NCBI GenBank assembly: GCA_015056655.1
Contig: SVFV01000007.1
Span: 62,001-126,000, forward strand
Source: Butyrivibrio sp.
GTDB taxonomy: Bacteria > Bacillota > Clostridia > Lachnospirales > Lachnospiraceae
Direction: 5' to 3'
Length of the DNA stretch: 64,000 bases
The notes beneath the pieces were generated by a model that was given only the letters and a program-made list of their open reading frames with translations, was not told the DNA's origin and did no database searches. The position numbers and the translations under genes were made by a program. Positions 10,791 to 63,359 of this stretch are shown piece by piece; position 1 is the stretch's first letter, and every line of letters starts with the position of its first letter.

Positions 10791-10810
10791 TGCTAGATTT
10801 GAGGTAATAG

Positions 10811-12004: not shown

Positions 12005-12035
12005 GTGTACTCAATAACAAAGTCGGTGTATCATG

Positions 12036-12063
12036 TTTACAATTTAAATATGTATGATACAAT
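12036..12063 (+). promoter_or_regulatory. Sigma-A-type promoter of uvrBA
   Basis: TTTACA, a 16-base spacer, then TACAAT. It lies 35 bases before the uvrB ATG, in the gap after the kinase gene, and is immediately followed by the LexA-type box. Confidence 0.6.
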
Positions 12064-12073
12064 TAGTTTAAAT

Positions 12074-12087
12074 CGAAAATATGTTCG
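12074..12087 (+). promoter_or_regulatory. LexA (DinR) SOS-box-like operator before uvrB
   Basis: CGAAAATATGTTCG matches the Bacillus LexA consensus CGAACRNRYGTTYC at 12 of 14 positions and is nearly palindromic. It sits just downstream of the predicted -10 and before the uvrB ribosome site, where LexA would block initiation or clearance. uvrBA is a classic SOS target. Confidence 0.65.
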
Positions 12088-12097
12088 GAGAAAATGT

Positions 12098-14092
12098 ATG
12101 GATCATTTTGAACTTAAATCTGAATATAAGCCGACTGGTGATCAGCCACAGGCAATTAAAGCACTGGTGGATGGCTTTAAAAGTGGTAATCAGTTCGAGA
12201 CATTACAGGGTGTTACCGGCTCAGGTAAGACCTTCGCCATGGCTAATGTAATTCAGGCGCTTAATAAACCGACTCTTGTTATTAGTCATAATAAGACACT
12301 GGCTGGACAGCTCTATGGTGAGTTTAAGGAGTTTTTCCCAAATAATGCTGTAGAGTATTTTGTATCCTACTACGACTACTATCAGCCAGAAGCTTATGTG
12401 CCACAGACTGATACATATATAGCTAAGGACTCTGCGATAAATGACGAGATTGATAAGCTCAGACTTTCAGCTACAGCATCCCTTACTGAGAGGAAGGATG
12501 TAATTGTTGTTGCGTCTGTTTCCTGCATTTATGGTCTGGGTAGCCCTGACGAATTCAAGGGAATGTCAATTTCCTTAAGGCCTGGAATGGAGAAGAGCAG
12601 AGAGGACATCATCAGAGACCTTGTTGCGATTCAGTACACAAGAAATGACCTTGATATAAACAGATGTAACTTCAGAGTTCGCGGAGATACTATCGAGATT
12701 TTTCCTGCTCAGGCGGATGACTATCTTATCCGAGTTGAGCTCTTTGGTGATGAGATTGACAGAATATGTGAGGTTGAGCCTGTTACCGGTGCTGTGAAGA
12801 GTGAACTTACTCATGTCATGATTTATCCGGCATCCCACTATGTTGTGCCTCAGGAAAAGATAAACCTTGCCTGCAAGAATATTGAGGCTGAGCTTGAGGA
12901 ACAGGTTAAGGAGTTCAAGGCTGAGGACAAGCTCATTGAGGCTCAGAGAATAGCTGAGAGAACTAACTTCGATATCGAGATGATGAGAGAGACCGGATTC
13001 TGTTCGGGAATTGAGAACTATTCAAGGCATTTAAACTTCATGCCTCCGGGTGAGCCGCCTCTTACACTTATGGACTTCTTTGATGGAGAATTTCTGATTA
13101 TTGTCGACGAATCACATATGACAATTCCTCAGATTGGTGCAATGTATCATGGTGACAGATCCAGGAAGACTACCCTTGTGGATTATGGATTCCGTCTGCC
13201 ATCAGCCCTTGATAACAGACCACTCAACTTTGAAGAGTTTGAAACACACATCGATCAGATGCTTTTCTGCTCTGCAACTCCCGGACCTTACGAGGCTGAG
13301 CATGAGCTTTTGAGAGCTGAACAGATAATAAGACCTACAGGACTTCTTGATCCGGAGATTTCAGTAAGACCAGTAGAGGGCCAGATTGATGATCTTATCA
13401 CAGAGATCAATAAGGAAATAGATAAGAAGAACAAGGTTCTTGTTACAACTCTTACCAAGAAGATGGCAGAGGATCTGACTGAATACCTCGCTGAAACTGG
13501 AATCAGAGTAAAGTATCTTCATTCTGATATAGATACCCTTGAGAGAGCTGAGATTATCAGGGACATGAGACTTGATGTATTCGATGTTCTTGTGGGAATC
13601 AATCTTTTGAGAGAGGGACTTGATATACCTGAGATTTCACTTGTTGCAATCATTGATGCTGACAAAGAGGGATTCCTTCGCTCTGAGACATCACTTATTC
13701 AGACTATTGGACGAGCTGCGAGAAATGCTGACGGACATGTAATCATGTATGCAGATAACATGACTGACTCTATGAAGAAGGCGATAGAAACAACTGAGCG
13801 CAGAAGGAAAATCCAGCAGGCATACAATGAGGAGCATGGCATCACTCCGCAGACTATTCGCAAGGCTGTAAGAGAACTGATCAGTGTAACCAAGGCAGTT
13901 GCCAAGCAGGAGGTTCAGTTTGAGAAGGATCCTGAATCTATGGATAGACAGGAACTTGAGAAACTCATCGGAGATGTTCAGAAGAAGATGAAGAGAGCTG
14001 CAGCAGAGCTCGACTTCGAGACGGCTGCTATGCTCAGAGACCAGATGGTGGATTTGAAGAAACATCTAAATGAATTAACCGGTGGAAAATAA
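12098..14092 (+). CDS. uvrB: Excinuclease ABC subunit UvrB
   Basis: This is the damage-verifying helicase-like subunit of nucleotide excision repair; it receives DNA from UvrA and recruits UvrC. The Walker A motif is GVTGSGKTF, the damage-probing beta hairpin is at [18 protein letters not shown], the DEAD-like box is DESHMT, helicase motifs VI-type are at QTIGRAARN, and a C-terminal UVR motif ([22 protein letters not shown]) binds UvrC. The track start (GTG at 12005) adds 31 unrelated residues; the ATG at 12098 follows CGGAG at normal spacing and gives 664 residues, the family norm. It is followed at 14 bases by uvrA. Confidence 0.98.
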
Positions 14093-14106: not shown

Positions 14107-17007
14107 ATGACAGACAATAATTCACATATGACAAAACTTAATACTTCCGCGAAGAGGATATTATCAAGTGACATTCATGATTATATCCGTGTTCGTGGTG
14201 CAAACGAGCACAACCTTAAAAATGTTAAGGTGAAGATTCCGAGGGATACTCTGACTGTATTTACAGGACTTTCAGGATCAGGTAAGTCATCCCTTGCATT
14301 TGATACGATTTTTGCAGAGGGACAGCGCAGATATATGGAGTCGCTTTCTTCTTATGCGAGAATGTTCCTTGGTCAGATGGATAAACCTGACGTTGAAAAG
14401 ATAGAGGGACTTTCCCCTACAATTTCAATAGACCAGAAGTCGACCAACAGAAACCCCAGATCAACAGTGGGAACAGTAACGGAGATATACGATCACTTCA
14501 GACTTTTGTATGCCCGCATAGGAATACCTCACTGCCCTAACTGTGGCAGAGAGATCAGAAGACAGACAGTTGATGAGATGGCTGACCAGATCATGGCTCT
14601 CCCAGAGGGTACAAGATTCCAGATTCTTGCTCCTGTTGTCAGAGGCAGAAAGGGTGAGCATGCCAAGGTTTTTGACAGAGCAAAAAGAGCAGGCTTTGTA
14701 AGAGTCAGAGTTGATGGCAACCAGTATGATCTGTCTGAAGAGATTTCTCTTGATAAGAATATAAAGCACAGTATTGAGATCATTGTGGACAGACTTGTTA
14801 TCAGACAGGACAAGGATGATATCAGATCAAGACTTACAGATTCAATTGAGAGTGCTCTTAATCTCGCAGAGGGACTTGTGGATGTTGATGTAATAGACGG
14901 AAAGCCTATGAACTTCAGCCAGAATTTCGCTTGTCCTGATTGCGGAATAAGCATTCCAGAAATTGAGCCCAGAAGCTTTTCCTTCAACAATCCTTTTGGA
15001 GCATGCCCTGAGTGTACAGGTCTTGGCTACAAGATGGAGTTTGATGAGGAGCTTATGATTCCGGATAAGAAGCTTTCCATAAATGAGGGATGCTTCCAGG
15101 TTACAGGCTGGGCTTCATCAGGTAAGGAGGGAAGCTTTACTAACGCTGTCCTCAGAGCTCTGGCAAAAGAGTATAAGTTTAGCCTTGATACTCCCTTTGA
15201 GAAGCTTTCACCCAAGGTCAGGGATATGCTGGTGCATGGCGCTGACAGACAGGTAATTGTTGAATACAAGGGCCAGAGAGGTGAGGGAAAATATCCCATT
15301 ACTTTTGATGGCCTTATCAGAAATGTTGAGCAGAGATACAGAGAGACATATTCTGAGCAGCAGAAGGCTGAGTATGAGTCTTATATGAGAATAACTCCCT
15401 GCGCTGTATGTAAGGGACAGAGACTTAAGCCTGAATCACTTGCTGTAACAATAGATGATAAGAATATTTTTGAGATCACATCATTTTCAATTGGAGAGCT
15501 TCATGAATATCTTGAGAACATGAAACTCACAAAACAGCAGGAGATGATTGGTGCTCAGGTCCTTAAGGAAATAAGAGCAAGGGTTGGATTCCTTATCGAT
15601 GTGGGCTTGGATTACCTTTCTTTATCAAGATCCACAGGAACCCTCTCTGGTGGTGAAGCACAGAGAATAAGACTTGCAACCCAAATTGGTTCGGGCCTTT
15701 GCGGAGTGTGCTATATACTTGATGAGCCAAGTATCGGACTTCATCAAAGAGATAATGATAAGCTTCTTAACACATTGAAGAATTTGCGTGATCTGGGTAA
15801 TACCCTTATCGTAGTAGAGCATGATGAGGATACCATGAGAGCAGCGGACTATATCGTAGATGTAGGTCCTGGTGCAGGATCCCATGGAGGTGAAATAGTT
15901 GCAACAGGAACTGCTGAGGATATCATGAAGGTTCCTGAGTCCATCACAGGACAGTATTTATCAGGTAAGCTTAAAATTGAAGTCCCTGATCACAGAAGAA
16001 AGCCCACAGGTTGGCTCAAGGTAAAGGGAGCGCAGGAGAATAACCTTAAAAATATCGATGTTAAATTTCCTCTTGGAGTACTTACTATTGTCACAGGTGT
16101 GTCCGGATCAGGTAAGAGCTCTCTTGTAAACGAGATTCTCTATAAGCATCTTGAGAGAGATTTAAACAGGGCAAGATGTATTCCTGGAAAGCACAAGGGT
16201 ATTGAAGGAATTGAACAGCTGGATAAGGTTATCGCAATCGACCAGTCACCTATCGGAAGAACTCCCAGGTCAAACCCTGCAACCTACACAGGCGTTTTCG
16301 ACATGATAAGAGACCTGTTTGCAGCTACACCGGATGCTAAGGCAAAGGGTTACAAGAAGGGAAGATTCTCCTTTAACGTCAAGGGTGGAAGATGTGAAGC
16401 CTGCGGCGGTGATGGAATCATAAAAATCGAGATGCATTTCCTTCCTGATGTATATGTTCCCTGCGAAGTCTGTGGAGGAAAGAGATACAACAGAGAGACA
16501 CTTGAAGTCAGATATAAGGGCAAAAACATCTATGATGTTTTGAATATGACTGTGGAAGAGGCTTTGCCCTTCTTTGAAAACATCAAGACCATCAAGAGAA
16601 AAATAAAGACTCTTTATGATGTAGGACTTGGATATGTTAAGCTTGGTCAGCCTTCTACGGAGCTTTCAGGTGGTGAAGCACAGCGAATAAAGCTTGCTAC
16701 AGAGCTTTCGAGGGCAAGTACCGGTAAGACTATCTACATTCTTGATGAGCCTACAACCGGACTTCATTTTGCTGATGTGCAGAAGCTTGTAAAGATTTTG
16801 CATGATCTGGTTGATGCAGGAAATACAGTTGTTGTCATCGAGCATAATCTGGATGTTATAAAGACAGGTGATTATATCATTGATATGGGACCTGAAGGAG
16901 GTGACGGCGGCGGAACTGTTGTAGTCCAGGGAACACCTGAGCAGGTGGCTAAGTGTAAGGAGTCATACACCGGCGCTTACATAAAGAGAATGCTTGAGAA
17001 AAAGTAA
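14107..17007 (+). CDS. uvrA: Excinuclease ABC subunit UvrA
   Basis: This 966-residue damage-recognition ATPase of nucleotide excision repair has two ABC-type ATPase modules: Walker [10 protein letters not shown] (near residue 57) and GVSGSGKSS (near residue 667), with signatures [14 protein letters not shown] and [14 protein letters not shown]. Zinc-binding Cys clusters are visible at CPNCGREI, at CPDCG with CPECTG, and at CEACGGDG with CEVCGG. The start is supported by AAGGAG. It carries an extra 25 or so residues before the usual start of the family ([13 protein letters not shown]). It forms an operon with uvrB and should share its SOS control. Confidence 0.98.
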
Positions 17008-17016
17008 GGATTATTA

Positions 17017-17044
17017 TTAAGTTTTTACATAATATGGCCGATAG
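17017..17044 (+). promoter_or_regulatory. Sigma-D (sigma-28)-type promoter upstream of mbl-flhO
   Basis: TTAA, a 16-base spacer, then GCCGATAG. The -10 matches 7 of 8 and the -35 matches 3 of 4 positions of the sigma-D consensus. It lies just after uvrA, 165 bases before mbl. The spacer length is the same as in the other sigma-D-type sites of this window. Confidence 0.5.
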
Positions 17045-17102
17045 AACAATTAGGGAGTTTATGTCCTGAAACTGCCAATCATGAAAAAATTGTGTTTTGA
17101 TA

Positions 17103-45680: not shown

Positions 45681-46682
45681 ATGAAATTAGACGGTAAAAC
45701 CTTATTAGTAACTGGAGGCACAGGTTCTTTTGGACACTGCTTTATAGAATATGTGCTCGAGCACTATAATCCGAAGAAGATTATTGTTTACTCAAGAGAT
45801 GAGTTTAAACAGTATACAATGGCCAATGAGAAGGTTTATAAAGAGCACGCAGATCAGATGCGTTTCTTCATTGGTGATGTAAGAGATGGAGCACGTCTTG
45901 AGAGAGCTATGGAGGGTGTTGATTATGTTATCCACGCCGCTGCTCTTAAGCAGGTTCCGGCTTGTGAATACAACCCTGACGAGGCTATCAAGACCAATGT
46001 TAATGGTGCTCAGAACGTAATAAATGCAGCACTTAACACAGGTGTAAAGCGCGTTGTTGCTCTTAGTACAGACAAGGCAGTTAATCCTGTAAACCTTTAC
46101 GGTGCTACAAAGATGGTTTCAGATAAGCTATTTATTGCAGCTAATGCTTATGCCGGCAATAAGGACATTAATTTCTCTATTGTTAGATATGGAAACGTAG
46201 CTGGAAGCAGAGGTTCTATCATTCCTCTCTTCAAGAGTCTTATTGAAAGAGGTGAGAAGGAGCTTCCTATCACTGACTATCGTATGACACGTTTCTGGAT
46301 AAGCCTTCCTGAGGGTGTTGAGCTTGTGCTCAAGGCACTTGACGAGGCTAAGGGTGGTGAGACCTTCATCAGTAAGATCCCTTCATTCACTGTCAAGGAT
46401 CTGGCTGAGGCTATGTGCCCTGGAATCGCTACAACAGAAGTTGGTATTCGTCCGGGTGAGAAGCTCGACGAGGTTATGGTAACTGTTGAGGATGCGCCTT
46501 TCACATACGAGTTTGATAAGCACTTCATCGTTTATCCTCAGGTGACATTCAATGACAGACAGGTTCCTGATCCGAGAGGAAAGAAGGTACCTGAAGGATT
46601 CTACTACAGCTCAGGTAACAATACTGAGTGGATGAGCGTTGCTGATATTCAGGCAAGACTTCATGAGGCAGTAGATCACTAA
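45681..46682 (+). CDS. pseB: UDP-GlcNAc 4,6-dehydratase (5-inverting) PseB
   Basis: This is the first enzyme of CMP-pseudaminic acid synthesis: it dehydrates UDP-GlcNAc at C4-C6 with inversion at C5. The NADP loop is TGGTGSFGH, the active site is STDKAVNPVNLYGATK (Asp, Lys and Tyr of PseB), and GNVAGSRGSIIPLF is diagnostic of the PseB/FlaA1 group. At 333 residues it is of normal length. The pseC gene follows 52 bases later. Confidence 0.96.
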   Translation: MKLDGKTLLVTGGTGSFGHCFIEYVLEHYNPKKIIVYSRDEFKQYTMANEKVYKEHADQMRFFIGDVRDGARLERAMEGVDYVIHAAALKQVPACEYNPDEAIKTNVNGAQNVINAALNTGVKRVVALSTDKAVNPVNLYGATKMVSDKLFIAANAYAGNKDINFSIVRYGNVAGSRGSIIPLFKSLIERGEKELPITDYRMTRFWISLPEGVELVLKALDEAKGGETFISKIPSFTVKDLAEAMCPGIATTEVGIRPGEKLDEVMVTVEDAPFTYEFDKHFIVYPQVTFNDRQVPDPRGKKVPEGFYYSSGNNTEWMSVADIQARLHEAVDH

Positions 46683-46734: not shown

Positions 46735-47949
46735 ATGAGCGATAATAATAATGATAAGAGAATCCCTGCAATTTGCGGGGGTTCGCCCGTTAGAAGCAAA
46801 AAATTATACTATTCTCATCAGGATGTAAATGAGAAGGATATTCAGGCGGTCGTAGATGTACTTAAAAGTGACTACCTGACAACTGGTCCTGCAATCACAG
46901 ATATGGAGGAGAAGCTTTGCAAGGTTACAGGTGCAAAACACGCTGTTGCAATAAGCAATGATACAGCGGCTCTTCATGTTGCTTGTCTGGCAGCAGGCGT
47001 AGGACCTGGTGATGAGGTTATTACAACTCCCATCACTTTTGCAGCAAGTGCTAACTGCGCATTTTATTGTGGCGCAAGACCTGTGTTTGCTGATATCGAT
47101 CCTGAGACATATCAGATCGATCCTGATGATATTGAGAGAAAGATTACATCAAAGACAAAGGCTGTAATCCCTGTGGATTATACAGGACAGACCGGTGCTC
47201 TTGATAGAATAAAAGAAATCTGCAAGAAGCATAACCTTGTAATGATCGAAGATGCTGCTCATTCCATCGGAACTACATATAAAGGAAAGCCCGTTGGAAC
47301 TATAGCTGATATGTCTACCTTCAGTTTTCATGCTGTTAAAACTATAACCGGAGGCGAAGGTGGAGCAATTCTTACAGATGATGATGAGTATTACAAGAAG
47401 CTTCTTCTTTTCCGTACTCATGGAATTACAAGGGACACATCTCTTATGGAGCATGAGATAGATGGCCCCTGGTATTATGAGCAGCTTTGCCTTGCACCTA
47501 ATTACAGACTTACAGATATGCAGGCAGCGCTTATCAGCAGCCAGCTCGACAGACTTGATGAGTTTGTAGCCAGAAGAAAAGAAATCAGAAAGAGATATGA
47601 TGAAGCATTTTCAAAGCTTCCTGAGCTTTTTGTTCAGAAAGAGGATCCGGATTCTGATTCCTGCAGACATTTATATATTCTCAGAATTGTACCAGAGAAG
47701 CTTAAAGTAGGACGCAAGGAGTTCTTCGATGCACTTGGAGCAGAGAACATCATCTGTAACGTTCACTACATTCCGACTTACTACTTCCCTTACTATGAGA
47801 AGCAGGGTTATAAGAAGGGACTTTGCCCTAACGCTGAGAAGCTCTATGATGAGATGATCACTATTCCTCTTTATGCAGCTATGACTGATGAGGACGTTGA
47901 GGATGTTATTGCTGCTGTAGAGAAGCTTGTGGATTACTACAGAGCTTGA
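46735..47949 (+). CDS. pseC: UDP-4-amino-4,6-dideoxy-N-acetyl-L-altrosamine transaminase PseC
   Basis: This PLP-dependent DegT-family enzyme aminates the 4-keto product of PseB using glutamate. It has SNDTAALHVACLAAG, TTPITFAASANC, EDAAHSIG and the Schiff-base Lys in SFHAVKTITGGEGGAIL. The PseC-specific start (YSHQDVNEKDIQAVVDVLKSDYLTTG) and position after pseB settle the call within the DegT family. The 404-residue length is slightly above the 375-390 usual. Confidence 0.95.
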   Translation: MSDNNNDKRIPAICGGSPVRSKKLYYSHQDVNEKDIQAVVDVLKSDYLTTGPAITDMEEKLCKVTGAKHAVAISNDTAALHVACLAAGVGPGDEVITTPITFAASANCAFYCGARPVFADIDPETYQIDPDDIERKITSKTKAVIPVDYTGQTGALDRIKEICKKHNLVMIEDAAHSIGTTYKGKPVGTIADMSTFSFHAVKTITGGEGGAILTDDDEYYKKLLLFRTHGITRDTSLMEHEIDGPWYYEQLCLAPNYRLTDMQAALISSQLDRLDEFVARRKEIRKRYDEAFSKLPELFVQKEDPDSDSCRHLYILRIVPEKLKVGRKEFFDALGAENIICNVHYIPTYYFPYYEKQGYKKGLCPNAEKLYDEMITIPLYAAMTDEDVEDVIAAVEKLVDYYRA

Positions 47950-47991: not shown

Positions 47992-48696
47992 ATGAGTGCT
48001 ATTGCAATAATTACAGCGCGTGGTGGAAGTAAGAGAATACCACGTAAAAATATAAAAGTATTTTGCGGTAAACCGATAATAAATTATTCAATTGAGGCTG
48101 CCCTTCAGTCGGGTATCTTTGATGAAGTAATGGTTTCAACTGATGATGAGGAGATTGCAGAGATAGCAAAGAAGGCAGGAGCAAATGTTCCCTTCTACAG
48201 ATCTGCGGAGACTTCAAGTGACATAGCTACTACAGCTGATGTGCTTTTGGAAGTACTTGATGAGTATGAGAAAATGGGACGCAGCTTCGAGTATGGATGC
48301 TGCATTTATCCCACAGCTCCTTTTGTTACTGCCAGAAAGCTTAAGGAAGCAATGGACGAGCTTATAAAGTCAGGTGCTCAGTCAATTGTTCCCATGCAGG
48401 AGTTTTCATATCCTCCTCAGCGCGGACTTTTCATTGATGAGAATGGACTGGTTAAGATGCTTCATCCTGAGTATGCAACAACAAGAAGTCAGGATCTTCA
48501 GAAGCAGTATCATGAGTGTGGTCAGTTCTACATTTTCAGAAATGACGAGTTCAGAATTCAGAAGGATACCACTATGGAGAAGTCAATTCCGTATATCATA
48601 GACCCTGTTGAATCACAGGATATTGATAATGAGAGCGACTGGCTTCTTGCAGAAATGAAGTACAGATTCCTTACAGAACAGGGATTACTTAAGTAA
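47992..48696 (+). CDS. pseF: Pseudaminic acid cytidylyltransferase PseF
   Basis: This 234-residue enzyme activates pseudaminic acid with CTP to CMP-Pse. It has the NeuA-type motif AIITARGGSKRIPRKNIKVFCGKPII and the acidic DPVESQDIDNESDWLLAEMKY tail of PseF. It is in the usual place among pse genes, before pseI. The NeuA and LegF families are alternatives, but the flanking genes fit Pse. Confidence 0.95.
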   Translation: MSAIAIITARGGSKRIPRKNIKVFCGKPIINYSIEAALQSGIFDEVMVSTDDEEIAEIAKKAGANVPFYRSAETSSDIATTADVLLEVLDEYEKMGRSFEYGCCIYPTAPFVTARKLKEAMDELIKSGAQSIVPMQEFSYPPQRGLFIDENGLVKMLHPEYATTRSQDLQKQYHECGQFYIFRNDEFRIQKDTTMEKSIPYIIDPVESQDIDNESDWLLAEMKYRFLTEQGLLK

Positions 48697-48707
48697 GACG
48701 AGGATAT

Positions 48708-49745
48708 ATGAAATTAGAGAAATGTCTTAAAGAAAACAGAGCATATATGATAGCAGAGATGAGCGCCAACCACGGCGGCTCTCTTGAAAATGCTTTAAAA
48801 ATAGTTGAAGCAGCAGCAAAGGCAGGGGCAGATTGCTTAAAGACTCAGACCTACACTGCTGACACAATTACTATTGATTGTGATGCGGAAGCTTTTAAAA
48901 TTCATGGAGGCTTATGGGATGGATATAATCTCCATGATCTTTACAAGGAAGCCTACACTCCCTGGGAGTGGATGGAGCCCATAAAGAAAAAGTGTGAGGA
49001 ATGCGGAATAGACTTCCTTTCCACACCTTTTGACAAGACTTCTGTGGATTATCTTGAAAATATTGGAGAGGAATTCTACAAGATAGCTTCATTTGAGCTT
49101 GTGGATATTCCGCTTATTAAGTATATAGCAAGGACCGGAAAACCCATCATCATGTCTACCGGTATGGGAAGTGAAGAGGAAATTGAGGAAGCTATAGCAG
49201 CTATCAGATCCGAGGGTAATGATCAGATTATTATTCTTAAGTGCTGTAGCGTTTATCCTACTGTTTCTGCAGATTTAAACCTTAGAACTATTCCTGATAT
49301 GAGGGAGAAATTCAAGGTGCCTGTAGGTCTTTCAGATCACTCAATGGGTGGCACAGCAGCTATTGCTGCAGCAGCACTTGGAGCTGTTGTTATTGAGAAG
49401 CATTTCTGCCTGGACAGAGACATTCCTTCAGCTGATTCAGCATTCTCCATGGAACCTCAGGAGTTTGCAGATATGGTAAAGGGTGTTCATGATGCAGAGC
49501 TTGCTTTGGGTAAGGTTTTCTATGGACCTACAGAGGCAGAGGCTGGAGAATATACCAACCGTAGATCCTTGTTTATAGTTGAGGATGTCGAGGAGGGCGA
49601 GGAGCTCACCGAGACAAATGTCAGAAGTATCAGATCCTACAATATACAGGGTATTAAGCCTAAGTATTACGAAGAAGTACTTGGAAAGAAAGCAAAGAAA
49701 AAGCTAATGCGCGGAACTCCGCTGGAATGGAGCCTATTTGAATAA
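48708..49745 (+). CDS. pseI: Pseudaminic acid synthase PseI
   Basis: This NeuB-family aldolase-like enzyme condenses phosphoenolpyruvate with 2,4-diacetamido-2,4,6-trideoxy-altrose. The TIM barrel has MIAEMSANHGGSLENA, CLKTQTYTADTIT, KIASFELVDIPLI and LSDHSMGGTAAIAA, and the C-terminal SAF domain carries NRRSLFIVEDVEEGEELTETNVRSIR. The SANH and KTQTY forms point to PseI rather than NeuB. It overlaps pseG by 8 bases. Confidence 0.96.
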   Translation: MKLEKCLKENRAYMIAEMSANHGGSLENALKIVEAAAKAGADCLKTQTYTADTITIDCDAEAFKIHGGLWDGYNLHDLYKEAYTPWEWMEPIKKKCEECGIDFLSTPFDKTSVDYLENIGEEFYKIASFELVDIPLIKYIARTGKPIIMSTGMGSEEEIEEAIAAIRSEGNDQIIILKCCSVYPTVSADLNLRTIPDMREKFKVPVGLSDHSMGGTAAIAAAALGAVVIEKHFCLDRDIPSADSAFSMEPQEFADMVKGVHDAELALGKVFYGPTEAEAGEYTNRRSLFIVEDVEEGEELTETNVRSIRSYNIQGIKPKYYEEVLGKKAKKKLMRGTPLEWSLFE

Positions 49746-50907
49746 GATAGCGATTCGTGTAGATGCAAATGAAATAGTAGCGACAGGGCACATTATGCGT
49801 TGCAGGACCATAGCAGGGAGCCTCAGGCAGATGGGGTGCACTGTCGTTTTTGTGTCTGCTGATAACAATATAGAGCCTTATATCGGAGGGGAATACGAGC
49901 TTTTTGTCCTTGAATCCAACTGGCGCAAGATGGAGCAGGAGGTGGCTTTATTCCTTAGTCTTTTGCGTGCTGAGAAAATAGACAGAGTCCTGGTGGACAG
50001 CTATCAGGTAACACCCTTGTACCTTAAAATCCTAAGGGATAATGGAATTAGCGTCATGTATATCGACGATATGAAAAAGGATATTTATCCTGTGAAGGCG
50101 CTTTTAAACTATAGTCCCAGTGCACTGACAATGGATTATGACAAGGACTATGACAAAGATACAATGCTCCTTCTTGGAACAAAATACATTCCGCTTAGAG
50201 AACAGTTTTGGCAGAGAAGACACTTCGATGCTGGTATGAGCTCTAGCGAAAAAGAGGAGAGATACGGCACCGACGGCGAGCTTCTAATGAACATAGATAT
50301 AGTTGCCCTTGAAAATGAAGAGGCATCTGCTGGAGCTCATAGGACTTACGGTTATGAGGATGGCATTAAAAATGTTTTCCTTACTACAGGCGGTGCAGAT
50401 ACAAGGGGACTTTCAGAGCTTATAATCACTGCGATTCTTTCTGAGCCTGAGCTTCAGTTTAAGGGAAATAAGAGTAAAAAGATTCATCTTCTTGCTGGAA
50501 GATTTTACAGGATATCAGAGAGAGTACAAAAGTATGTTGAGGATGGCAGCGTAGTTCTTCATCAGAATGTAAGCAATGTTGCTGAGATTATGGGAAGCTG
50601 CGATTTTGCTATAACTCCGGCTGGAACGACACTCTTTGAATTATGCGCAGTTGGAGTGCCATCTGTGAGCTATGTTTTTGCTGACAATATGGAGCCGGAT
50701 GCATTGTATTTTGCAAATGATGGACTGGTACCATACGCGGGTGATTTCAGAGATGATGAAAGAACCGTTTTGATAAATATCATGACTCAGCTTCTGAAGT
50801 TCTCTGAGCTTGATACTGCTTCAAGAATTGAAATCGGAAACAGGATGAAGAGTATCATAGATGGTCAGGGTGCTGACAGAATAGCAGAAGCAATTTTGGA
50901 TATGTAA
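49738..50907 (+). CDS. pseG: UDP-sugar hydrolase PseG
   Basis: This GT-B-fold hydrolase removes UDP from the 2,4-diacetamido sugar before PseI. The general-base His is in ATGHIMRCRTIAGSL and the nucleotide-binding half has FLTTGGADTRGLSEL and ITPAGTTLFELCAVGVPSVSY. It starts with TTG inside the end of pseI, with GGAG 6 bases upstream. At 389 residues it is longer than the usual 280-340, with an extra charged stretch around residues 160-210 (GMSSSEKEERYGTDGELL). Confidence 0.92.
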   Translation: MNKIAIRVDANEIVATGHIMRCRTIAGSLRQMGCTVVFVSADNNIEPYIGGEYELFVLESNWRKMEQEVALFLSLLRAEKIDRVLVDSYQVTPLYLKILRDNGISVMYIDDMKKDIYPVKALLNYSPSALTMDYDKDYDKDTMLLLGTKYIPLREQFWQRRHFDAGMSSSEKEERYGTDGELLMNIDIVALENEEASAGAHRTYGYEDGIKNVFLTTGGADTRGLSELIITAILSEPELQFKGNKSKKIHLLAGRFYRISERVQKYVEDGSVVLHQNVSNVAEIMGSCDFAITPAGTTLFELCAVGVPSVSYVFADNMEPDALYFANDGLVPYAGDFRDDERTVLINIMTQLLKFSELDTASRIEIGNRMKSIIDGQGADRIAEAILDM

Positions 50908-50921
50908 TTTCCGGAGATTTA

Positions 50922-52163
50922 TTGTATATGAAAAAGATTTTTATTTTGGGAGCAAGTGCACTTCAGGTGCCTGCAATCAGAAGAGCGAAGGAAAAGGGAT
51001 TGTATGTGTATGCGCTTGATTACGATCCGCATGCAGTGGGAATTCCTGAAGCAGATGAGTTTTTGCTCATAAGTACAATTGATAAAGAGGCAGTTCTTGA
51101 GGCTGCAAAGAAATATAAGCCGGATTTTGTTGTGACATCAACCAGCGACCTGCCTGTAAGAACGGTTGCGTGGGTTAATGAGCAGCTTGGAAGAGAAGGT
51201 GGAATAGCATACGAGGATGCGATCTGTGCTACAGATAAGGCAGCGATGCGCGTAAGGATGAAGGAATGCGGAGTTCCTATTCCTGATTTTCATGTGGCTG
51301 GCTCAAAGGAAGAGTTCCTTGAAAAGACAAATCTTCTGGGTGATAAATTTGTTTGTAAGCCTGCTGATAATGCAGCAAGCAGAGGTGTGGTTTTAGTTGA
51401 TAAGAATGAACTAAAGGCAGATGGAAAAAATCTTGAAGAAGAGCTCTTAAAGATATATGAGTACACTCACAGCTTTTCCAGAAGCGGAGAGGTTCTTGTA
51501 GAGGAGCTTATGACAGGCCCAGAGGTTAGTGTTGAGTCCATAACTGTGGATGGCGAGCCTCATATAATAACCATCACAGATAAGCTGATAACTAAAGAGC
51601 CATACTTTGTTGAGACTGGACACACTGAGCCATCAAGATTATTCAAGTATCAGCAGGAGGACATCAGACAGGTTGCATTTAAGGCAATAAAAGCTTTGAA
51701 CATGTCCTATGGTTCAAATCATACAGAGATCAAGGTTACTCCGACAGGAGCAAAGCTTGTGGAAATAGCAGCAAGGCTTGGAGGAGATTACATTACTTCC
51801 AGACTTGTTCCGCTTTCAACAGGGGTTGATATGATAGACTGCGACCTCTCAAGTGCTGTTGGAGATAAGGTTAACTACGAGAAAACTCTCGATAAAGGCT
51901 CTGCTATCAGATTTATCTACTTTAACGAGGATGAAGAGAATGAAAGAGAGCATGTAATAAAGGCTATTGATGGCGTTTCGGATGCGCAGAGTGTTCCTGG
52001 TGTTACAGAGGTAGTTCTTTACAAAAATGTGGGGGACACAGCTGGCAGATTAAAGAGCAGTAACGACAGGATAGGACACGTTATTGCCACAGGAAAAGAT
52101 GCTGACGAAGCCGAAGAAAACGCACTTTTGGCGCTTTCAAAGATACATATATTATACGAATAA
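50922..52163 (+). CDS. ATP-grasp ligase of unknown substrate
   Basis: This roughly 413-residue protein has the three parts of biotin-carboxylase-like ATP-grasp enzymes. They are an N-terminal Rossmann-like domain (IFILGASALQVPAIRRAKEKGLYVYALDYDP), a central lid (DKFVCKPADNAASRGVVLVD with EELMTGPEVSVESI) and the metal site NHTEIKVTPTGAKLVEIAARLGGD. Such enzymes join a carboxylate to an amine or similar via acyl phosphate. It lies 14 bases after pseG and before a PLP-type gene. Two starts are possible: TTG at 50922 (GGAG 5 bases away) or ATG at 50928 (11 bases). It may modify a sugar amine with an amino acid, but this is inference. Confidence 0.85.
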   Translation: MYMKKIFILGASALQVPAIRRAKEKGLYVYALDYDPHAVGIPEADEFLLISTIDKEAVLEAAKKYKPDFVVTSTSDLPVRTVAWVNEQLGREGGIAYEDAICATDKAAMRVRMKECGVPIPDFHVAGSKEEFLEKTNLLGDKFVCKPADNAASRGVVLVDKNELKADGKNLEEELLKIYEYTHSFSRSGEVLVEELMTGPEVSVESITVDGEPHIITITDKLITKEPYFVETGHTEPSRLFKYQQEDIRQVAFKAIKALNMSYGSNHTEIKVTPTGAKLVEIAARLGGDYITSRLVPLSTGVDMIDCDLSSAVGDKVNYEKTLDKGSAIRFIYFNEDEENEREHVIKAIDGVSDAQSVPGVTEVVLYKNVGDTAGRLKSSNDRIGHVIATGKDADEAEENALLALSKIHILYE

Positions 52164-52210
52164 ATCCTTTTATGGGATTTCACATATATGTTGCAATGTG
52201 ATCAGTTTTT
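52162..52210 (+). repeat. Two tandem hairpins between the ATP-grasp and PLP-type genes
   Basis: AAATCC/GGATTT (52162-52167 with 52175-52180) and TCACAT/ATGTGA (52180-52185 with 52196-52201), the latter followed after four bases by TTTTT. The second may be a weak attenuator; stems are short and the downstream gene is in the same direction. Confidence 0.35.
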
Positions 52211-52225
52211 GAAATGGGGATTGGT

Positions 52226-53419
52226 ATGTACGAGATTGGTAGCGAATTTCATTTTGAGAAAAACAATGTACGCGAGAACCTGATAGAGGTATTTGAGCAT
52301 GCTGCTTCAAAAAGCGGAAGAAATGTAGCTTTTTTAAGATGTGGCAGAGATGCTATTGGCTTTGTGGCTGATGATATTATTGCGAAAATGGAGGATGCAG
52401 GAGATGATAGCCTTGGTAAAAAGGTATTTTTGCCTGCTCTTTCCTGCGATTCTATGGTGAGACCCTTCGAGGTAAGAGGCTTTGATGTGAGCTTCTACAG
52501 ACTTAAGGAGGACCTTACTGTTGATACTGAATATCTTATAAGTGAGATGGGAAAAGTTACTGATAACAGTAAGCTTTCTGTTCTTTTCATGAATTTCTAT
52601 GGAATAGCAGATACTACTGAGGCTTCAAAGGCTGTAAGAGAAAGCTTTGCAAATGCAGCGATCATTGAGGACGTGACACATATTTTACTTGAGCCTGAAA
52701 AATATCTTGAGACGGATAAAGCAGCCTATGTGGATTACCATGTTGGAAGTATCCGCAAGTGGCTTGGAGTTCCGGATGGAGCTCTTGCCATAAGCAAGGA
52801 TGAATTTGTAATGGGCGCACTTACAGGCGAGACAGATTTCTCACTTCTTAGAATGGAAGCCTTAAAGGAAAAGACACAGTATCTTGATAACGGAGATGAG
52901 GAGCTTAAAGTCCATTTCAGAAAGCTTTTATCAGATGCTGAGGATTCCCTTAGCGATGGACTTGATCCTTATCATATGTCTGATGAGAGCGCTGAGTATT
53001 TAAAGAGTATTGATGCTCTTTACATGAGCGAGAAGAGAGCTATGAATTATCATAACCTCTACAGCATGTTGAAGGCTCTTCCAATCTATGGAAAGGCATT
53101 CAGACTTTTGAAGGAAGAGGATTATGAGGAGTTTACTCCCTTTATGCTTCCTATCGTTCTTGATATCGACTTTATGAGAAGAAGCGCTATCACAGAAGAA
53201 GGCAAGACTATCACAAGAGATGGCTTTGAAAAGGTTCTTGCAAGCAAGGGCGTTTACGCTCCTGTGCTTTGGCCTATTTCTGAAGAAGCAGCGAAGACCT
53301 GTCCTGTCTCTGAAAGCTTTGCTGATAAGATGCTGGCATTCTGGATTGATCAAAGATATAACAGATTCGACATGGAGAGAATCTGTGAGGTATTAGACGA
53401 GAGCCTTGCACAGATTTAA
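52226..53419 (+). CDS. Divergent PLP-dependent (aspartate aminotransferase fold) protein
   Basis: This 397-residue protein (start at ATG 52226; track start 52214) resembles DegT-type aminotransferases in outline: FLRCGRDAIGFVADDI as in the substrate-binding start, FLPALSCDSMVRPFEVRGF, VLFMNFYG, IIEDVTH for the PLP-stacking Asp, and YHVGSIRKWLGVPDGAL where the Schiff-base Lys would be RK. The usual SFHxxKxxxxGEGG is not there, so it is not a canonical sugar aminotransferase. It follows the ATP-grasp gene and may act with it. Function is unknown. Confidence 0.65.
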   Translation: MYEIGSEFHFEKNNVRENLIEVFEHAASKSGRNVAFLRCGRDAIGFVADDIIAKMEDAGDDSLGKKVFLPALSCDSMVRPFEVRGFDVSFYRLKEDLTVDTEYLISEMGKVTDNSKLSVLFMNFYGIADTTEASKAVRESFANAAIIEDVTHILLEPEKYLETDKAAYVDYHVGSIRKWLGVPDGALAISKDEFVMGALTGETDFSLLRMEALKEKTQYLDNGDEELKVHFRKLLSDAEDSLSDGLDPYHMSDESAEYLKSIDALYMSEKRAMNYHNLYSMLKALPIYGKAFRLLKEEDYEEFTPFMLPIVLDIDFMRRSAITEEGKTITRDGFEKVLASKGVYAPVLWPISEEAAKTCPVSESFADKMLAFWIDQRYNRFDMERICEVLDESLAQI

Positions 53420-54565: not shown

Positions 54566-54589
54566 TACTCTCATATATCAGTGGGGTGA

Positions 54590-54611
54590 CATCTTTCCCT
54601 GGAGGGAGAGA
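54590..54611 (+). repeat. Hairpin in the leader of the sialyltransferase-like gene
   Basis: TCTTTCCC, a 4-base loop, GGGAGAGA (8 pairs with one wobble), five bases before the AAAGGAG ribosome site at 54614. No T-run follows, so it is not an intrinsic terminator. Confidence 0.35.
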
Positions 54612-54624
54612 TAAAGGAGATAAC

Positions 54625-55767
54625 GTGCACGAGAGAATTTATGTATGCCACACCTTTTATCATGTGTATGTGGCATGTCTAAAGGAATTTCATATATTAC
54701 ATGGGCTGTCTGCTAAAAAGGACGGCGATTTTGCTTCTTCTAAAGCAGGCGAAGGCAGCAGCGCTGCTGGAAGAGCTACACTTGTGCTTTCAAAGATGAG
54801 TAACAAGTTTGGAAGCATGGTAGAAAGAGCAAGGAATTGCGGACTTTTTGAAGAGGTAATTGAGTATGATGAAAAGGTTGATACCTTTTTCCCTGAGCTT
54901 GCTCCTCTTCGAAAAAATACAGGAAGTCTTCCAAAGAACATGATCAACAGAATCAAGTTCTGCAAGAGATTTGCGCAGCTCCAGGAACAGTACATACCTG
55001 TAGACTTTAAGCAGTACAAGGATATTTATGTTTTCTGCGATTCTGATCCAATAGGCTACTATCTGAACTATAAAAAGATTAGATACCATGCCCTTGAGGA
55101 TGGCCTTAACTGCATCAAATACGGCGATCAGGCACGCTATGACAACAATGGACACTTTAAGTTCAAGGCATGGCTTGCATCAACAGGTCTTATCTTCATC
55201 CAGAACGGCTGGGGCAGATACTGCATAGATATGGAGGTTAATGACATCTCCATTTTGGACTACCCATGTCCTAAGTATATAGAAGTTCCGCGTGAGCCAC
55301 TTGTTGAGGAGCTTACGCAGGCAGATAAGGATCTCATGCTCGAGCTTTTTGTGGAGAACATGGATGAACTTAAGCAGCAGCTTGAAAAGGGCAAGGATAA
55401 GCCCAGAGTTTTGATTTTATCTGAACCCCTCTGCGATCTTGAGACCAGAGAACGCCTTTTCAGAGACCTTGTAAATGAGTATGGAACCGTAAATGGCAAG
55501 GAAGCTATCGTAATGATAAAGCAGCATCCCAGAGACTACCTTGATTATAAAACCAAGTTCTCTGATGTTATTCTTCTTGCAGGCACCTTCCCAATGGAGA
55601 TGCTCAACTTTATTGATGGTCTTAAATTTGATAGACTAGTATCGGTATATACAGTTGTTGACTCAATCAAATTCGTTGATGAGAAGCTTTTCCTCGGTGA
55701 TGACTTTATGGATAAGTATGAAGCGCCTGAGATTCATCGACTTAATGAACAGATAATAGATAATTAG
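54625..55767 (+). CDS. GT-B sialyltransferase-like protein (GT52/POLYST type), candidate nonulosonic acid transferase
   Basis: This 380-residue protein has RYHALEDGLNCIKYG, matching the D/E-D/E-G motif, and IVMIKQHPRDYLDY, matching the HP motif, of bacterial GT-B sialyltransferases; a late VSVYTVVDSIKF may be the S(S/T)-type motif. The N-terminus ERIYVCHTFYHVYVACLKEF resembles that of GT52 enzymes. I chose the GTG at 54625, with AAAGGAG at 5 bases, over the track start at 54586. Its place a few genes after pseG, with CMP-Pse as an available donor, suggests a pseudaminyl transferase. The family call rests on motifs only. Confidence 0.65.
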   Translation: MHERIYVCHTFYHVYVACLKEFHILHGLSAKKDGDFASSKAGEGSSAAGRATLVLSKMSNKFGSMVERARNCGLFEEVIEYDEKVDTFFPELAPLRKNTGSLPKNMINRIKFCKRFAQLQEQYIPVDFKQYKDIYVFCDSDPIGYYLNYKKIRYHALEDGLNCIKYGDQARYDNNGHFKFKAWLASTGLIFIQNGWGRYCIDMEVNDISILDYPCPKYIEVPREPLVEELTQADKDLMLELFVENMDELKQQLEKGKDKPRVLILSEPLCDLETRERLFRDLVNEYGTVNGKEAIVMIKQHPRDYLDYKTKFSDVILLAGTFPMEMLNFIDGLKFDRLVSVYTVVDSIKFVDEKLFLGDDFMDKYEAPEIHRLNEQIIDN

Positions 55768-59800: not shown

Positions 59801-59859
59801 ATGATATCCGACCGGACAAAGTCAGATAATAACTATAGTTATTAGAGGTGGACTATTAT

Positions 59860-60996
59860 ATGCGAATAAATTTTAATGTGCCTCCTTTCACAGGAAAGGA
59901 AATGGACTACATAAAAATCTGTGTAGAGAATCAGAAGATTTGTGGTGATGGCGAATTCACTAAAAAAGATAATGAGTGGTTTGAGAAAAAGACAGGAGCA
60001 AATAAGTGCCTTCTTACAACCTCATGCACTCACGCTACAGAGATGGCGGCTATTCTTGCAGGAATCAAAGAAGGGGATGAAGTTATAATGCCTTCCTACA
60101 CCTTTGTTTCCACTGCGAATGCGTTTGTACTTAGAGGTGCAAAGGTAGTATTTGTGGATATCCGTCCAGACACCATGAACATAGATGAAAATCTAATTGA
60201 GGATGCTATCACACCAAAGACAAGGGCAATCGTACCTATGCACTACGCAGGTGTTGGCTGCGAGATGGACACCATCATGGATATAGCAAAGAGGCATAAT
60301 CTTTTTGTTGTAGAGGATGCAGCCCAGGGTGTTATGTCTACCTACAAGGGTAAGGCACTCGGAGCTATCGGAGATTTTGGTAACTACAGCTTCCATGAGA
60401 CAAAGAATTACAGCATGGGCGAAGGTGGAGCACTTATCCTCAGGGATGAGACCTATGTCAATGATGCGATTATCATCAGAGAGAAGGGTACCAACAGAAC
60501 ACTTTACCAGCTTGGTAAGGTTGATAAATACACATGGCTTCAGCCTGGTTCCTCATATCTTCCCAGTGATATGAATGCTGCTTATCTTTATGCACAGCTT
60601 CAGATGGCAGATGAGATAAATGAGGACAGATTAAAGAGCTACAACAAGTATGTTGAAGCTTTCAAACCTCTTGAGGAGGCAGGGCTTATCGAGCTTCCTT
60701 ATGTTCCGGAGGAATGTGTGCACAATGCTCACATGTTTTATATTAAGTGTAAGGATCAGGAAGAGAGAGCAGGACTTATAAATTACTTAAAGAGCAATGA
60801 TATCCTCCCGGCTTCACATTATGTTCCGTTACACACATCTACTGCAGGACTTAAGTACAGCAGGTTCCATGGAGAGGATAGATATACAACAAAGGAAAGC
60901 TTAAGACTTTTAAGACTTCCTATGTATTACAAGCTTTCAGATGAGGATCTTAATGAAGTAGTTCTTCGAGTAAAAGAGTACTATAGGGCGGTATGA
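59860..60996 (+). CDS. rffA: dTDP-4-amino-4,6-dideoxy-galactose transaminase (RffA/WecE)
   Basis: This DegT-family enzyme makes dTDP-Fuc4N from dTDP-4-keto-6-deoxy-glucose. It aligns by eye closely to E. coli WecE: INFNVPPFTGKEMDYI, KICGDGEFTKK, YTFVSTANAFVLRGAKVVFVDIRPDTMNID, HYAGVGCEMDTIM, EDAAQGVMSTYKGKALG, and SFHETKNYSMGEGGAL with the PLP Lys. The ATG at 59860 has AGAGGTG 9 bases upstream; the track start lies inside that site. At 378 residues it fits WecE (376). Its stop overlaps the next start by ATGA. Confidence 0.95.
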   Translation: MRINFNVPPFTGKEMDYIKICVENQKICGDGEFTKKDNEWFEKKTGANKCLLTTSCTHATEMAAILAGIKEGDEVIMPSYTFVSTANAFVLRGAKVVFVDIRPDTMNIDENLIEDAITPKTRAIVPMHYAGVGCEMDTIMDIAKRHNLFVVEDAAQGVMSTYKGKALGAIGDFGNYSFHETKNYSMGEGGALILRDETYVNDAIIIREKGTNRTLYQLGKVDKYTWLQPGSSYLPSDMNAAYLYAQLQMADEINEDRLKSYNKYVEAFKPLEEAGLIELPYVPEECVHNAHMFYIKCKDQEERAGLINYLKSNDILPASHYVPLHTSTAGLKYSRFHGEDRYTTKESLRLLRLPMYYKLSDEDLNEVVLRVKEYYRAV

Positions 60997-62825
60997 AAAA
61001 CGAAAAGAAAAACATTTCATTGAACTATATAATTACAAGTCTCATGGTCACTGTTTTTGCAGTGGTCGTGGGACTTTTGTACGATTATTTCTTTGATCTT
61101 AATGATGATGTTTTAATGAAGGATATTCTCTCCGGAGTATATACCGGCAATCCTGAAGGGCATAATATTCAGATGCTCTATCCCATAAGCTTTATAATAA
61201 GCCTTTTTTATAAAATAAGTAGCACCGTAGACTGGTATGGGCTATTCCTTATTGTATGCCAGTATTTAAGTGTGACGGTTCTTATTTACTTTGGAGTATC
61301 TCTGGTAAGGGGCAGTGAAAGCACAATTGAAGAGGAGGCTCTGAAGGAAGCCAGGGACAGAGTCGTTTATTATTTCAGATTCATGATAACTCCTGCGCTT
61401 ATGCTGATAGTGGTAGCAGGGCTTTTCTTAGGGCATCTTGTAATAGTTCAGTATACTTTTACAGTGGCACTTATGTGTTCGGCAGCAGTTGTGCTTTTTG
61501 CAAAGGGATGGGATAAGACGGCTTCCTGCATTGTCATCATTGCCTTTTTGATCAGATCTGAGATGACACTTCTAATGCTTCCATTTGTGCTTCTGGTGCT
61601 CTTTTATCGTTACTTCTCTTTAAGGGATAACAAGGAGGAATTAAAAAGAACACTGATAGTAGCTGGGGCAATAATAATAGGACTTCTTGTTTCCAAGGGC
61701 CTTAATTTTGCAGGTTATAGTTCAGCTGAATGGAAGGAATTTAATTCTTTTTTTGATAACAGAACTCAGGTATACGATTTTTATCAGATTCCTGACTATG
61801 CAGAAAATAAAGAGTTCTATGACAGCATTGGACTTGATGAGAGTGAGTATCAGCTTCTGGTAAACTATAACTTTGGAATCGATGACAAGATAAATGCTGA
61901 ACTTATGGGCAAAATCGCTGAATATGGCAAGGAATTAAAGGCAAAAGAGAGCCTTTTTAGCAGTATCAGAAGAGTTTTTCCTAACTATTTATACAGACTT
62001 AGAAGATTTAATCTTCCAATCGGCTATGAGTATCCTATGACGGATTCACCTTGGAATCTGATGACGTGGATATTATATATTTATGCGTTTCTGTTATGGC
62101 TTTTTGGAATCCGTTCAAATCATGGATGGCGCAAGGGAATATGGGGAGCATTCTGGAGAGTTGCAATTTTATTCTGCGGAAGGACTCTTATATGGATGTA
62201 TATTCTCGTGAGAGGAAGAGATCCCATCAGAATTACGCATTCCCTATATTTGATTGAGATATTTGTTTTGATCTCACTTTTGTATCTGGCAAAGAAATCC
62301 TACAAGGAAAGTGCGCTTGTTATAGAGAAAAAGATTTCTTTCTGGATGGTTGGAATCATACTTATGGAAAGCGTGATCCTTACGCCTGTTATGTCCAGAA
62401 TTATTAAGACGGAATGCGGAGGCAGAACCGAATACAATAGAGCTTATGAGGAGCTTGATGATTATTGCAGATCAAATGCTGACAGCTTTTACTTTGTGGA
62501 TGTATATACATCTGTAGCTTATGAGGATACAGGATATACCTATTCCGAGAAGATGTTTGAAAATGTGGATAACAGTCTTTCAAATCAGATCTTGATGGGT
62601 GGCTGGGCATGCAAGAGTCCTATTGAAAGTAAAAAGCTGGTGAATGCCTTTGGAAATAGCAGCATGGAAGAGGATATCCTTTCTGACAAGGCCTGTATTG
62701 TTGCTGATAAGGATACAGATATGGGCTGGCTTACTGATTATTACAGCTATAAAAACACAGATATTACTATTGAAAAGGTTGACCTTGTTGCAGATGAATT
62801 TGTAATTTATAAGGCTTCAAGGTAA
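60993..62825 (+). CDS. Multi-pass GT-C-like membrane protein
   Basis: This 610-residue protein has about eleven membrane segments. The first outside loop carries DLNDDVLMKDILSGVYTGNPEGHNIQMLYP, an acidic motif of the kind seen in GT-C transferases, and the C-terminal 150 residues form a soluble outside domain. It is translationally coupled to rffA (ATGA), so it probably uses the 4-amino sugar made by that enzyme. It has no clear named family. Confidence 0.72.
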   Translation: MKNEKKNISLNYIITSLMVTVFAVVVGLLYDYFFDLNDDVLMKDILSGVYTGNPEGHNIQMLYPISFIISLFYKISSTVDWYGLFLIVCQYLSVTVLIYFGVSLVRGSESTIEEEALKEARDRVVYYFRFMITPALMLIVVAGLFLGHLVIVQYTFTVALMCSAAVVLFAKGWDKTASCIVIIAFLIRSEMTLLMLPFVLLVLFYRYFSLRDNKEELKRTLIVAGAIIIGLLVSKGLNFAGYSSAEWKEFNSFFDNRTQVYDFYQIPDYAENKEFYDSIGLDESEYQLLVNYNFGIDDKINAELMGKIAEYGKELKAKESLFSSIRRVFPNYLYRLRRFNLPIGYEYPMTDSPWNLMTWILYIYAFLLWLFGIRSNHGWRKGIWGAFWRVAILFCGRTLIWMYILVRGRDPIRITHSLYLIEIFVLISLLYLAKKSYKESALVIEKKISFWMVGIILMESVILTPVMSRIIKTECGGRTEYNRAYEELDDYCRSNADSFYFVDVYTSVAYEDTGYTYSEKMFENVDNSLSNQILMGGWACKSPIESKKLVNAFGNSSMEEDILSDKACIVADKDTDMGWLTDYYSYKNTDITIEKVDLVADEFVIYKASR

Positions 62826-62840
62826 ACAGGGAGGTTTTAA

Positions 62841-63359
62841 ATGGGAATTGTCAGAGGGCAGAAGGTTTTCTTAAGAGAGATTACCCTTGATGACACCAAA
62901 AATGTGGTGAAATGGAGAAATAACCCCAGGGTTAGAAATAACTTCATCTACAGAGAGATATTTACTGATGCCACTCATAATGAGTGGATGAAAACAAAGG
63001 TTGCTTCAGGTGAGGTTTGTCAGATGATAATCTGCGAGGCGGAAAGCGAAAGGCCGGTTGGAAGTGTATACCTCAGGGATATAGATAATGATAAAAAGGA
63101 AGCTGAATACGGAATTTTTATCGGCGAGGATGATGCTACCTCCAAGGGCTATGGCAACGAAGCAGCGATTCTAATGTGCGATTACGCAAGAGATGAGCTT
63201 GGACTGAAGAGACTGATACTCAGGGCTTTTTGCGATAATGAGCCTGCACTTAAGAGCTATGAGCATGCAGGATTTAAGAAAACAGAGGACCTTCCAGAGG
63301 TTAAATGCTCTGATGGTGAAGTTAAGGATATGATTCTTATGGAAAAGGTTTTATGGTAA
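62841..63359 (+). CDS. GNAT N-acetyltransferase (PseH-like or WecD-like)
   Basis: This 172-residue acetyltransferase has VFLREITLDDTKNVVKWRNNPRVRNNF, whose WRN signature is common in PseH and RimJ-type enzymes, the acetyl-CoA region ATSKGYGNEAAILMCDYARDEL, and NEPALKSYEHAGFKKTED. A strong AGGGAGG precedes the ATG. It could be PseH, the missing step between PseC and PseG, or it could acetylate dTDP-Fuc4N made by RffA just upstream, as WecD does. Position favours the latter and sequence style the former. Confidence 0.88.
   Translation: MGIVRGQKVFLREITLDDTKNVVKWRNNPRVRNNFIYREIFTDATHNEWMKTKVASGEVCQMIICEAESERPVGSVYLRDIDNDKKEAEYGIFIGEDDATSKGYGNEAAILMCDYARDELGLKRLILRAFCDNEPALKSYEHAGFKKTEDLPEVKCSDGEVKDMILMEKVLW

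Follow-up and report, generated by a model that had tools for sequence, protein, structure and literature searches.

Pseudaminic acid (Pse) is a bacterial relative of sialic acid, and surface sugars of this type shape the encounters of bacteria with hosts, phages and antibodies, with N-acyl groups accounting for much of their diversity. During Pse biosynthesis, the product of PseC carries an amine that PseH would acetylate. Other substituents occur on related sugars, such as the N-methyl-glutamyl group of a legionaminic acid (Leg) derivative in the flagellin of C. botulinum, and the BtrJ/BtrK pair provides a case in which glutamylation is followed by decarboxylation on a carrier protein. In the canonical pathway, PseBCHGIF of C. 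jejuni and H. pylori, PseH acetylates N4 of the PseC product (PMC7910423). In C. difficile, Fuc3N on type B flagellin bears Gly-Ala-taurine, with the amino acids placed on the sugar amine by MS and NMR; the genes CDR20291_0244-0247 encode FemAB, ATP-grasp and ornithine-cyclodeaminase-like proteins next to an amino-sugar aminotransferase, and mutation showed that the ATP-grasp and ornithine-cyclodeaminase-like genes are needed (PMC5207245, PMC5207246). An ATP-grasp_4 gene, sfmE, belongs to sfmABCDE of Shewanella oneidensis, which has a Pse-like sugar without one N-acetyl group (PMC3765264), and Leg of Vibrio vulnificus bears an alanyl group (PMC7371886). A literature search found no papers on FemAB with nonulosonic acids or on ATP-grasp with butirosin decarboxylase.

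In this study, a Pse locus was analyzed within a 64,000-nucleotide stretch of Butyrivibrio sp. DNA (referred to as the window), in which a gene for an ATP-grasp ligase is followed by one for a divergent PLP-type protein, here called PLP*. A recurrent module of a ligase and a PLP enzyme would explain how some N-acyl groups are made and would allow unusual aminoacyl sugars to be predicted from genomes. It also offers a role that can be tested for an enzyme family that has no name but a strict motif signature.

The Pse locus of the window

All five Pse enzymes found (PseB, PseC, PseF, PseI and PseG) score above their NCBIfam cut-offs, PseG barely so, and the genes run in the order PseB, PseC, PseF, PseI, PseG, ATP-grasp, PLP*, GT2, GT52. 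The features are as follows.

45681-46682, + strand, PseB, UDP-GlcNAc 4,6-dehydratase (inverting); TIGR03589, 512.8 bits, cut-off 407.75
46735-47949, + strand, PseC, 4-aminotransferase; TIGR03588, 469.1 bits, cut-off 423.5
47992-48696, + strand, PseF, CMP-Pse synthetase; TIGR03584, 289.2 bits, cut-off 205.7
48708-49745, + strand, PseI, Pse synthase; TIGR03586, 455.1 bits, cut-off 340.25
49738-50907, + strand, PseG, UDP-sugar hydrolase; TIGR03590, 153.9 bits, cut-off 153.55
50922-52163, + strand, ATP-grasp ligase of the L-amino-acid-ligase type; Pfam ATP-grasp_4 and LAL_C2
52214-53419, + strand, PLP*, divergent fold-type I PLP protein; AlphaFold2, Foldseek and invariant residues
53480-54565, + strand, GT2 glycosyltransferase; Pfam PF00535, a conserved neighbour in Pse/PLP* loci in the neighbour census
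54586-55767, + strand, GT52/polysialyltransferase-like protein, probable Pse transferase; Pfam PF07922, E 2.4e-13
59848-60996, WecE homologue; NCBIfam
62841-63359, + strand, GNAT, PseH-like but below cut-off; TIGR03585, 73 bits, cut-off 93.1

The list of open reading frames bears out the original prediction that the ATP-grasp and PLP-type genes are consecutive, and has both on the + strand. That prediction also set the pair between CMP-Pse synthesis and a putative Pse transferase; the pair does lie within this span, but its direct neighbours are PseG upstream and GT2 downstream, with the sialyltransferase-like GT52 next. The arrangement is not due to chance, because another locus (L031) keeps an order identical to that of the window from PseF to GT52, with identities of 61% for the ATP-grasp protein and 44% for PLP*.

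The ATP-grasp ligase

The ATP-grasp open reading frame reads as a real, intact ligase gene. It matches PF13535 (ATP-grasp_4; 77.3 bits, E 1e-21) and PF18603 (LAL_C2; 73.7 bits, E 1e-20) above the Pfam cut-offs, and Lys144, His265, Glu267, Glu279 and Arg283 (K144, H265, E267, E279 and R283, numbered from the ATG at 50928), which we take to be ATP-grasp signature positions, are invariant across eight relatives. This ATG is probably the true start, being situated a few bases past a purine-rich stretch resembling a ribosome-binding site, and relatives begin with MKK. The closest relatives in the PDB are BL00235, an L-amino acid ligase (E 9.5e-18), and BacD. As the characterised L-amino-acid ligases are only distant relatives, the donor could be something other than an amino acid; a role for the window ligase as an N-aminoacylating enzyme on a Pse sugar amine is moderately likely.

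The PLP* protein

The adjacent PLP* frame likewise has the appearance of a real, intact gene, probably starting at the ATG at 52226, with a purine-rich stretch resembling a ribosome-binding site a few bases upstream and with relatives beginning with MEIGS. For the window protein, searches of Pfam and PHROG found no match and NCBIfam gave nothing meaningful. Assignment to a named family was rejected, the matches in all three libraries being no better than noise, and no name for the family was found in the libraries searched. An AlphaFold2 model (13 relatives; pLDDT 87.8, pTM 0.90) was placed by Foldseek among the fold-type I PLP enzymes at a TM of about 0.5-0.6, near-equally close to sugar aminotransferases (ArnB and PseC), NifS/IscS and serine palmitoyltransferase. 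When a profile built from 36 members was run against structures, it matched those of DegT type (E 5e-13); a search with PF01041 gave 0 matches to the window protein and weak matches to 23 of the 36 relatives (best E 1.1e-13).

In profile-profile alignments with ten sugar aminotransferases, including PseC, Lys182 of PLP* aligns with the Schiff-base Lys, Asp153 with the pyridine Asp and Ser179 with the phosphate-site Ser. Since these three residues are also invariant in 98 members, the cofactor site is probably intact; the family itself is probably distinct. The full set of invariant positions in the 98 members comprises G9, P74, C78, D153, S179, R181, K182, R275, R335, W353, D379 and R381. The N-Y-R motif of the DegT set (N256-Y257-R in PseC), presumably the phosphate contact from the partner subunit, is not conserved in PLP*. 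Three invariant Arg residues suggest the binding of a carboxylate or other anion.

The original prediction had singled out an atypical lysine context and had made its reading depend on the cofactor pocket. The context is real, S-x-R-K-W around the Lys being a hallmark of the family and not the trace of a lost site, and both the invariant residues and their alignment with PseC indicate a cofactor site that looks intact. A dead PLP enzyme was rejected as an explanation on account of the invariant Lys182, Asp153 and Ser179, and a replacement for PseC was rejected for the window, where a full PseC is present.

Occurrence and neighbourhood of PLP*

Of 250 genomes of the same family, 27 contain a PLP* match, although the weakest of these matches may be ordinary aminotransferases, and at strong scores PLP* is present in about 20 of 391 genomes of the class. 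Cultured carriers include Hungatella hathewayi WAL-18680 (L091), which has Leg genes, FemAB and PLP*, and Litchfieldia alkalitelluris (L101). A public genome collection scanned with a 6-row PLP* alignment (A2) gave 240 stretches with PLP*, and the best 80 of the 240, which were kept, come from Clostridia, Bacilli, Bacteroidota, Nostoc (a cyanobacterium) and methanogen records. The census covers about 100 related PLP* loci, the neighbourhoods of which were typed using profiles built for this analysis; some are duplicated under two identifiers (for example L043/L116, L034/L159 and L005/L115).

A ligase gene, either ATP-grasp or FemAB-like, is no more than two genes away from PLP* in 23 of the 25 Leg-type loci and in all 20 UDP-4-amino-sugar loci that have a PglC-like transferase; among the 28 Pse loci, 19 have one no more than six genes away. 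These counts are not statistically independent because the census loci are mutually related. Of the nine remaining Pse loci, at least two, L033 and L045, are interrupted by contig ends, and their ligases are on other contigs (L175 and L176). The loci were picked by PLP* alone, so that the sampling itself did not favour the presence of a ligase. Chance as the reason for the proximity of the ATP-grasp and PLP* genes was rejected by the census and the PLP* tree. The original prediction would have been refuted by occurrence of the pair independently of glycan loci; the pairing with a ligase is repeated in glycan loci, and clades of PLP* free of ligases do exist, but as separate branches.

One of these clades (L105-L112 and L163) is tight, with PLP* at about 9 kb in most of its loci; in L106 and L108 the gene is surrounded by housekeeping genes, without sugar or ligase genes. 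Another (L037, L046, L047 and L048) has neither ligases nor sugar-nucleotide genes nearby. The PLP* neighbours in L046-L048 are an RpiR regulator, an isoaspartyl dipeptidase-like amidohydrolase, a PanF-like symporter and a creatininase-like amidase, with a class II glutamine amidotransferase in addition in L046.

Methyltransferase genes are found near PLP* in many Leg loci and octopine-dehydrogenase-like genes in L036 and L119. Domain searches gave no match for a 634 aa protein of L119 or a 438 aa protein of L128. Three methyltransferase-like frames, two of them overlapping, occupy 5445-6913 of L092, a Leg locus with FemAB and PLP*, and suggest repeated methylation. A CotH-kinase-like protein is encoded at 14917-17097 within the Pse/PLP*-PseG locus L040.

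Fusions, trees and loci with a ligase but no PLP*

PLP* and PseG form a single open reading frame in 17 loci (for example L040, L045, L033, L124 and L147), and in one locus (L139) PLP* is fused to a PglC-like transferase. As PseG and PglC are consumers of the acylated UDP sugar, these fusions suggest that PLP* acts at that stage, and its substrate is probably a nucleotide sugar. The PLP* tree, a quick tree with weak deep forks, indicates that PLP* was recruited into Pse loci three or more times and that its ligase partner changed about ten times.

In the ligase tree, the window ligase groups with those of L031 and L168. The latter is a Pse locus with a ligase 61% identical to that of the window, in a genome in which no PLP* was found, and L170 and L171 are further Pse loci with ATP-grasp and without PLP*. 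Since close ligases occur in Pse loci that lack PLP*, the latter looks like an optional addition to ligation. A Pse locus in another genome of the same genus as the window (L173, genome G207) has GT2, GT52 and ATP-grasp genes without PLP*. At 10394-12322 of this locus, beside the ATP-grasp gene, PseF and a PLP decarboxylase of fold type III are fused. The PDB relatives of this decarboxylase include N-citrylornithine decarboxylase, diaminopimelate decarboxylase and BtrK; the ATP-grasp protein is only distantly similar to the window ligase (27%). By analogy, the presence of a different PLP enzyme in place of PLP* next to an ATP-grasp gene favours amino-acid chemistry for PLP*, and the methyltransferase and octopine-dehydrogenase-like genes near PLP* point the same way.

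Several other arrangements were observed. A 661 aa frame in a Pse locus (L171, 6908-8893) combines a domain resembling CMP-sugar synthetase with an ATP-grasp ligase domain. The Pse locus L172 (6197-9349) contains ATP-grasp, GNAT and 3-oxoacyl-ACP synthase III-like genes, possibly for another acyl group. The genome of the window has a second locus on contig C18 (L177, 6308-11485), with NeuB-like, cytidylyltransferase-like, DegT and PylC-like ATP-grasp genes, possibly for another sugar acid with an ATP-grasp step.

PseH and the control genomes

A search of the whole genome of the window for PseH (TIGR03585) gave nothing over the cut-off of 93.1, the best score being 73 bits. This best candidate, the GNAT at 62841-63359, is 13 kb downstream of PseI and about 10 kb from the Pse locus, and is separated from the WecE homologue only by a 610 aa frame without a Pfam match. 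The three genes (59848-63359) make up a 4-amino-sugar module of their own, adjacent to the Pse genes; the GNAT probably belongs to this module, although it could act as PseH.

As a control, 56 genomes of the same family with PseI above cut-off were compared, 8 with PLP* in the Pse locus (counting G107 and G060, which are split across contigs) and 48 without. A ligase of the window type lies within 3.5 kb of PseI in 7/8 genomes with PLP* versus 5/48 without (Fisher p 2.5e-5), the eighth having a PylC-like ATP-grasp instead. A PseH-like gene was found within 3.5 kb of PseI in 0/8 versus 18/48 (p 0.03), a contrast that is only suggestive because it is lost at 15 kb (p 0.21). In addition, no PseH could be detected in many of the Pse loci that have no PLP*. 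Absence of PseH as judged by profile is therefore weak evidence.

Among 14 complete Leg loci with PLP*, a FemAB-like gene is present in 13 and a PseH-like GNAT above 75 bits in none. Five complete Pse loci all have a ligase, and among them only the window has such a PseH-like GNAT, far downstream. In the UDP-4-amino/PglC loci a GNAT usually accompanies PLP* and FemAB, so the module there is added to acetylation and not exchanged for it.

Proposed mechanism and alternatives

Gene order, ligase and PLP signatures, fold, the recurrent association with a ligase and the fusions are directly seen. The preferred reading, to which an even chance is given, is that the window contains a variant Pse locus, in which acetyl transfer by PseH is replaced, or supplemented, by a module of ATP-grasp and PLP* that would aminoacylate and then edit. 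The ATP-grasp ligase would activate an amino acid with ATP and join it to the free 4-amine, derived from PseC, of the UDP sugar, this acylated amine becoming N7 of Pse. PLP* would then bind the alpha-amine of the newly attached residue as a Schiff base at its Lys182 site and alter that residue, the candidate reactions being epimerisation, decarboxylation, side-chain lyase or elimination chemistry and transamination. After editing, PseG would remove UDP, PseI would extend the sugar and PseF would activate it. In this scheme we infer the choice of amine, an amino acid as the donor and the action of PLP* after ligation. The original suggestion of an amino acid or another acyl group being placed on a sugar amine by the pair is partly supported, by context: the ligase pairing, the lack of a recognised PseH in the locus and the PseG fusion. 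A wider proposal, that PLP* represents a new widespread fold-type I family editing amino acids on nucleotide sugars after ligation ('install, then edit'), is put forward tentatively, with the balance of probability somewhat against it. If true, such editing after ligation would give bacteria and archaea a general means of making unusual aminoacyl sugars.

The order of events might be reversed, with PLP* first producing a non-protein amino acid in free form, such as a D-, beta- or decarboxylated one, for the ligase to attach afterwards. ATP-grasp partners do use free amino acids, and the amidohydrolase, amidotransferase and amidase neighbours in L046-L048, which lack sugar-nucleotide genes, hint at amino-acid substrates; however, the expected substrates of FemAB-type ligases are aminoacyl-tRNAs carrying ordinary amino acids, and the fusion partners of PLP* are PseG and PglC and not the ligase. 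Such prior supply is possible but rather unlikely. It is less probable that PLP* is a true sugar aminotransferase, making an extra amine that the ligase acylates. The closest folds and profiles are those of DegT sugar aminotransferases and PLP* of the glycan clades always lies amid sugar genes, but a canonical PseC, LegC or PglE-like aminotransferase is already present in most complete loci, the loci share no common oxidase or dehydratase for a second keto group, and both the non-conserved N-Y-R motif and the three Arg residues, with their suggested anion binding, argue against it.

The explanation given the lowest probability, and considered unlikely, is that the GNAT at 62841-63359 is PseH and N7 is ordinary, with the pair decorating another glycan amine, such as a 4-amino sugar made by WecE. 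In its favour are the 73 bits of this GNAT against the PseH profile, its place in one gene run with the pair, and the nearby WecE. Against it, every related Pse locus has the pair embedded amid its Pse genes, 17 loci have PLP* fused to PseG, and the complete Pse loci L124, L147, L155 and L040 contain no such GNAT in the stretch searched.

Comparison with known systems

The window has PseB, C, G, I and F in common with canonical PseBCHGIF, all over profile cut-offs, and differs from it in having no PseH over cut-off in the genome and in having ATP-grasp and PLP* after PseG. BL00235 and BacD share the ATP-grasp_4 domain with the window ligase, but their products are dipeptides or anticapsin amides, whereas the proposed acceptor here is a sugar amine. 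The DegT/DnrJ/EryC1/StrS aminotransferases share the fold and the Lys, Asp and Ser cofactor residues with PLP*, which is set apart by S-x-R-K-W, a conserved N-terminal EIGS, DQRY and three invariant Arg beside the Lys, as well as by the lack of the N-Y-R motif and, for the window protein, of any Pfam match. BtrK and N-citrylornithine decarboxylase are PLP decarboxylases for acylated or carrier-bound amino acids, with a homologue fused to PseF in L173; they are of fold type III and PLP* is of fold type I, so that the likeness is one of analogy only. The Shewanella sfm system resembles the window in its ATP-grasp gene and Pse-like sugar, but has no PLP*, and its substituent of 236-264 Da is seemingly nitrogen-free (PMC3765264). 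CDR20291_0244-0247 of C. difficile shares ATP-grasp (Pfam 13535) with the window and a FemAB-type gene with other PLP* loci; its sugar is dTDP-Fuc3N and not Pse, and a putative ornithine cyclodeaminase stands in place of PLP*, none being described. Aminoacylated amino sugars are already known, as in this flagellin, and the proposed module of ligase and PLP* would add a new variant.
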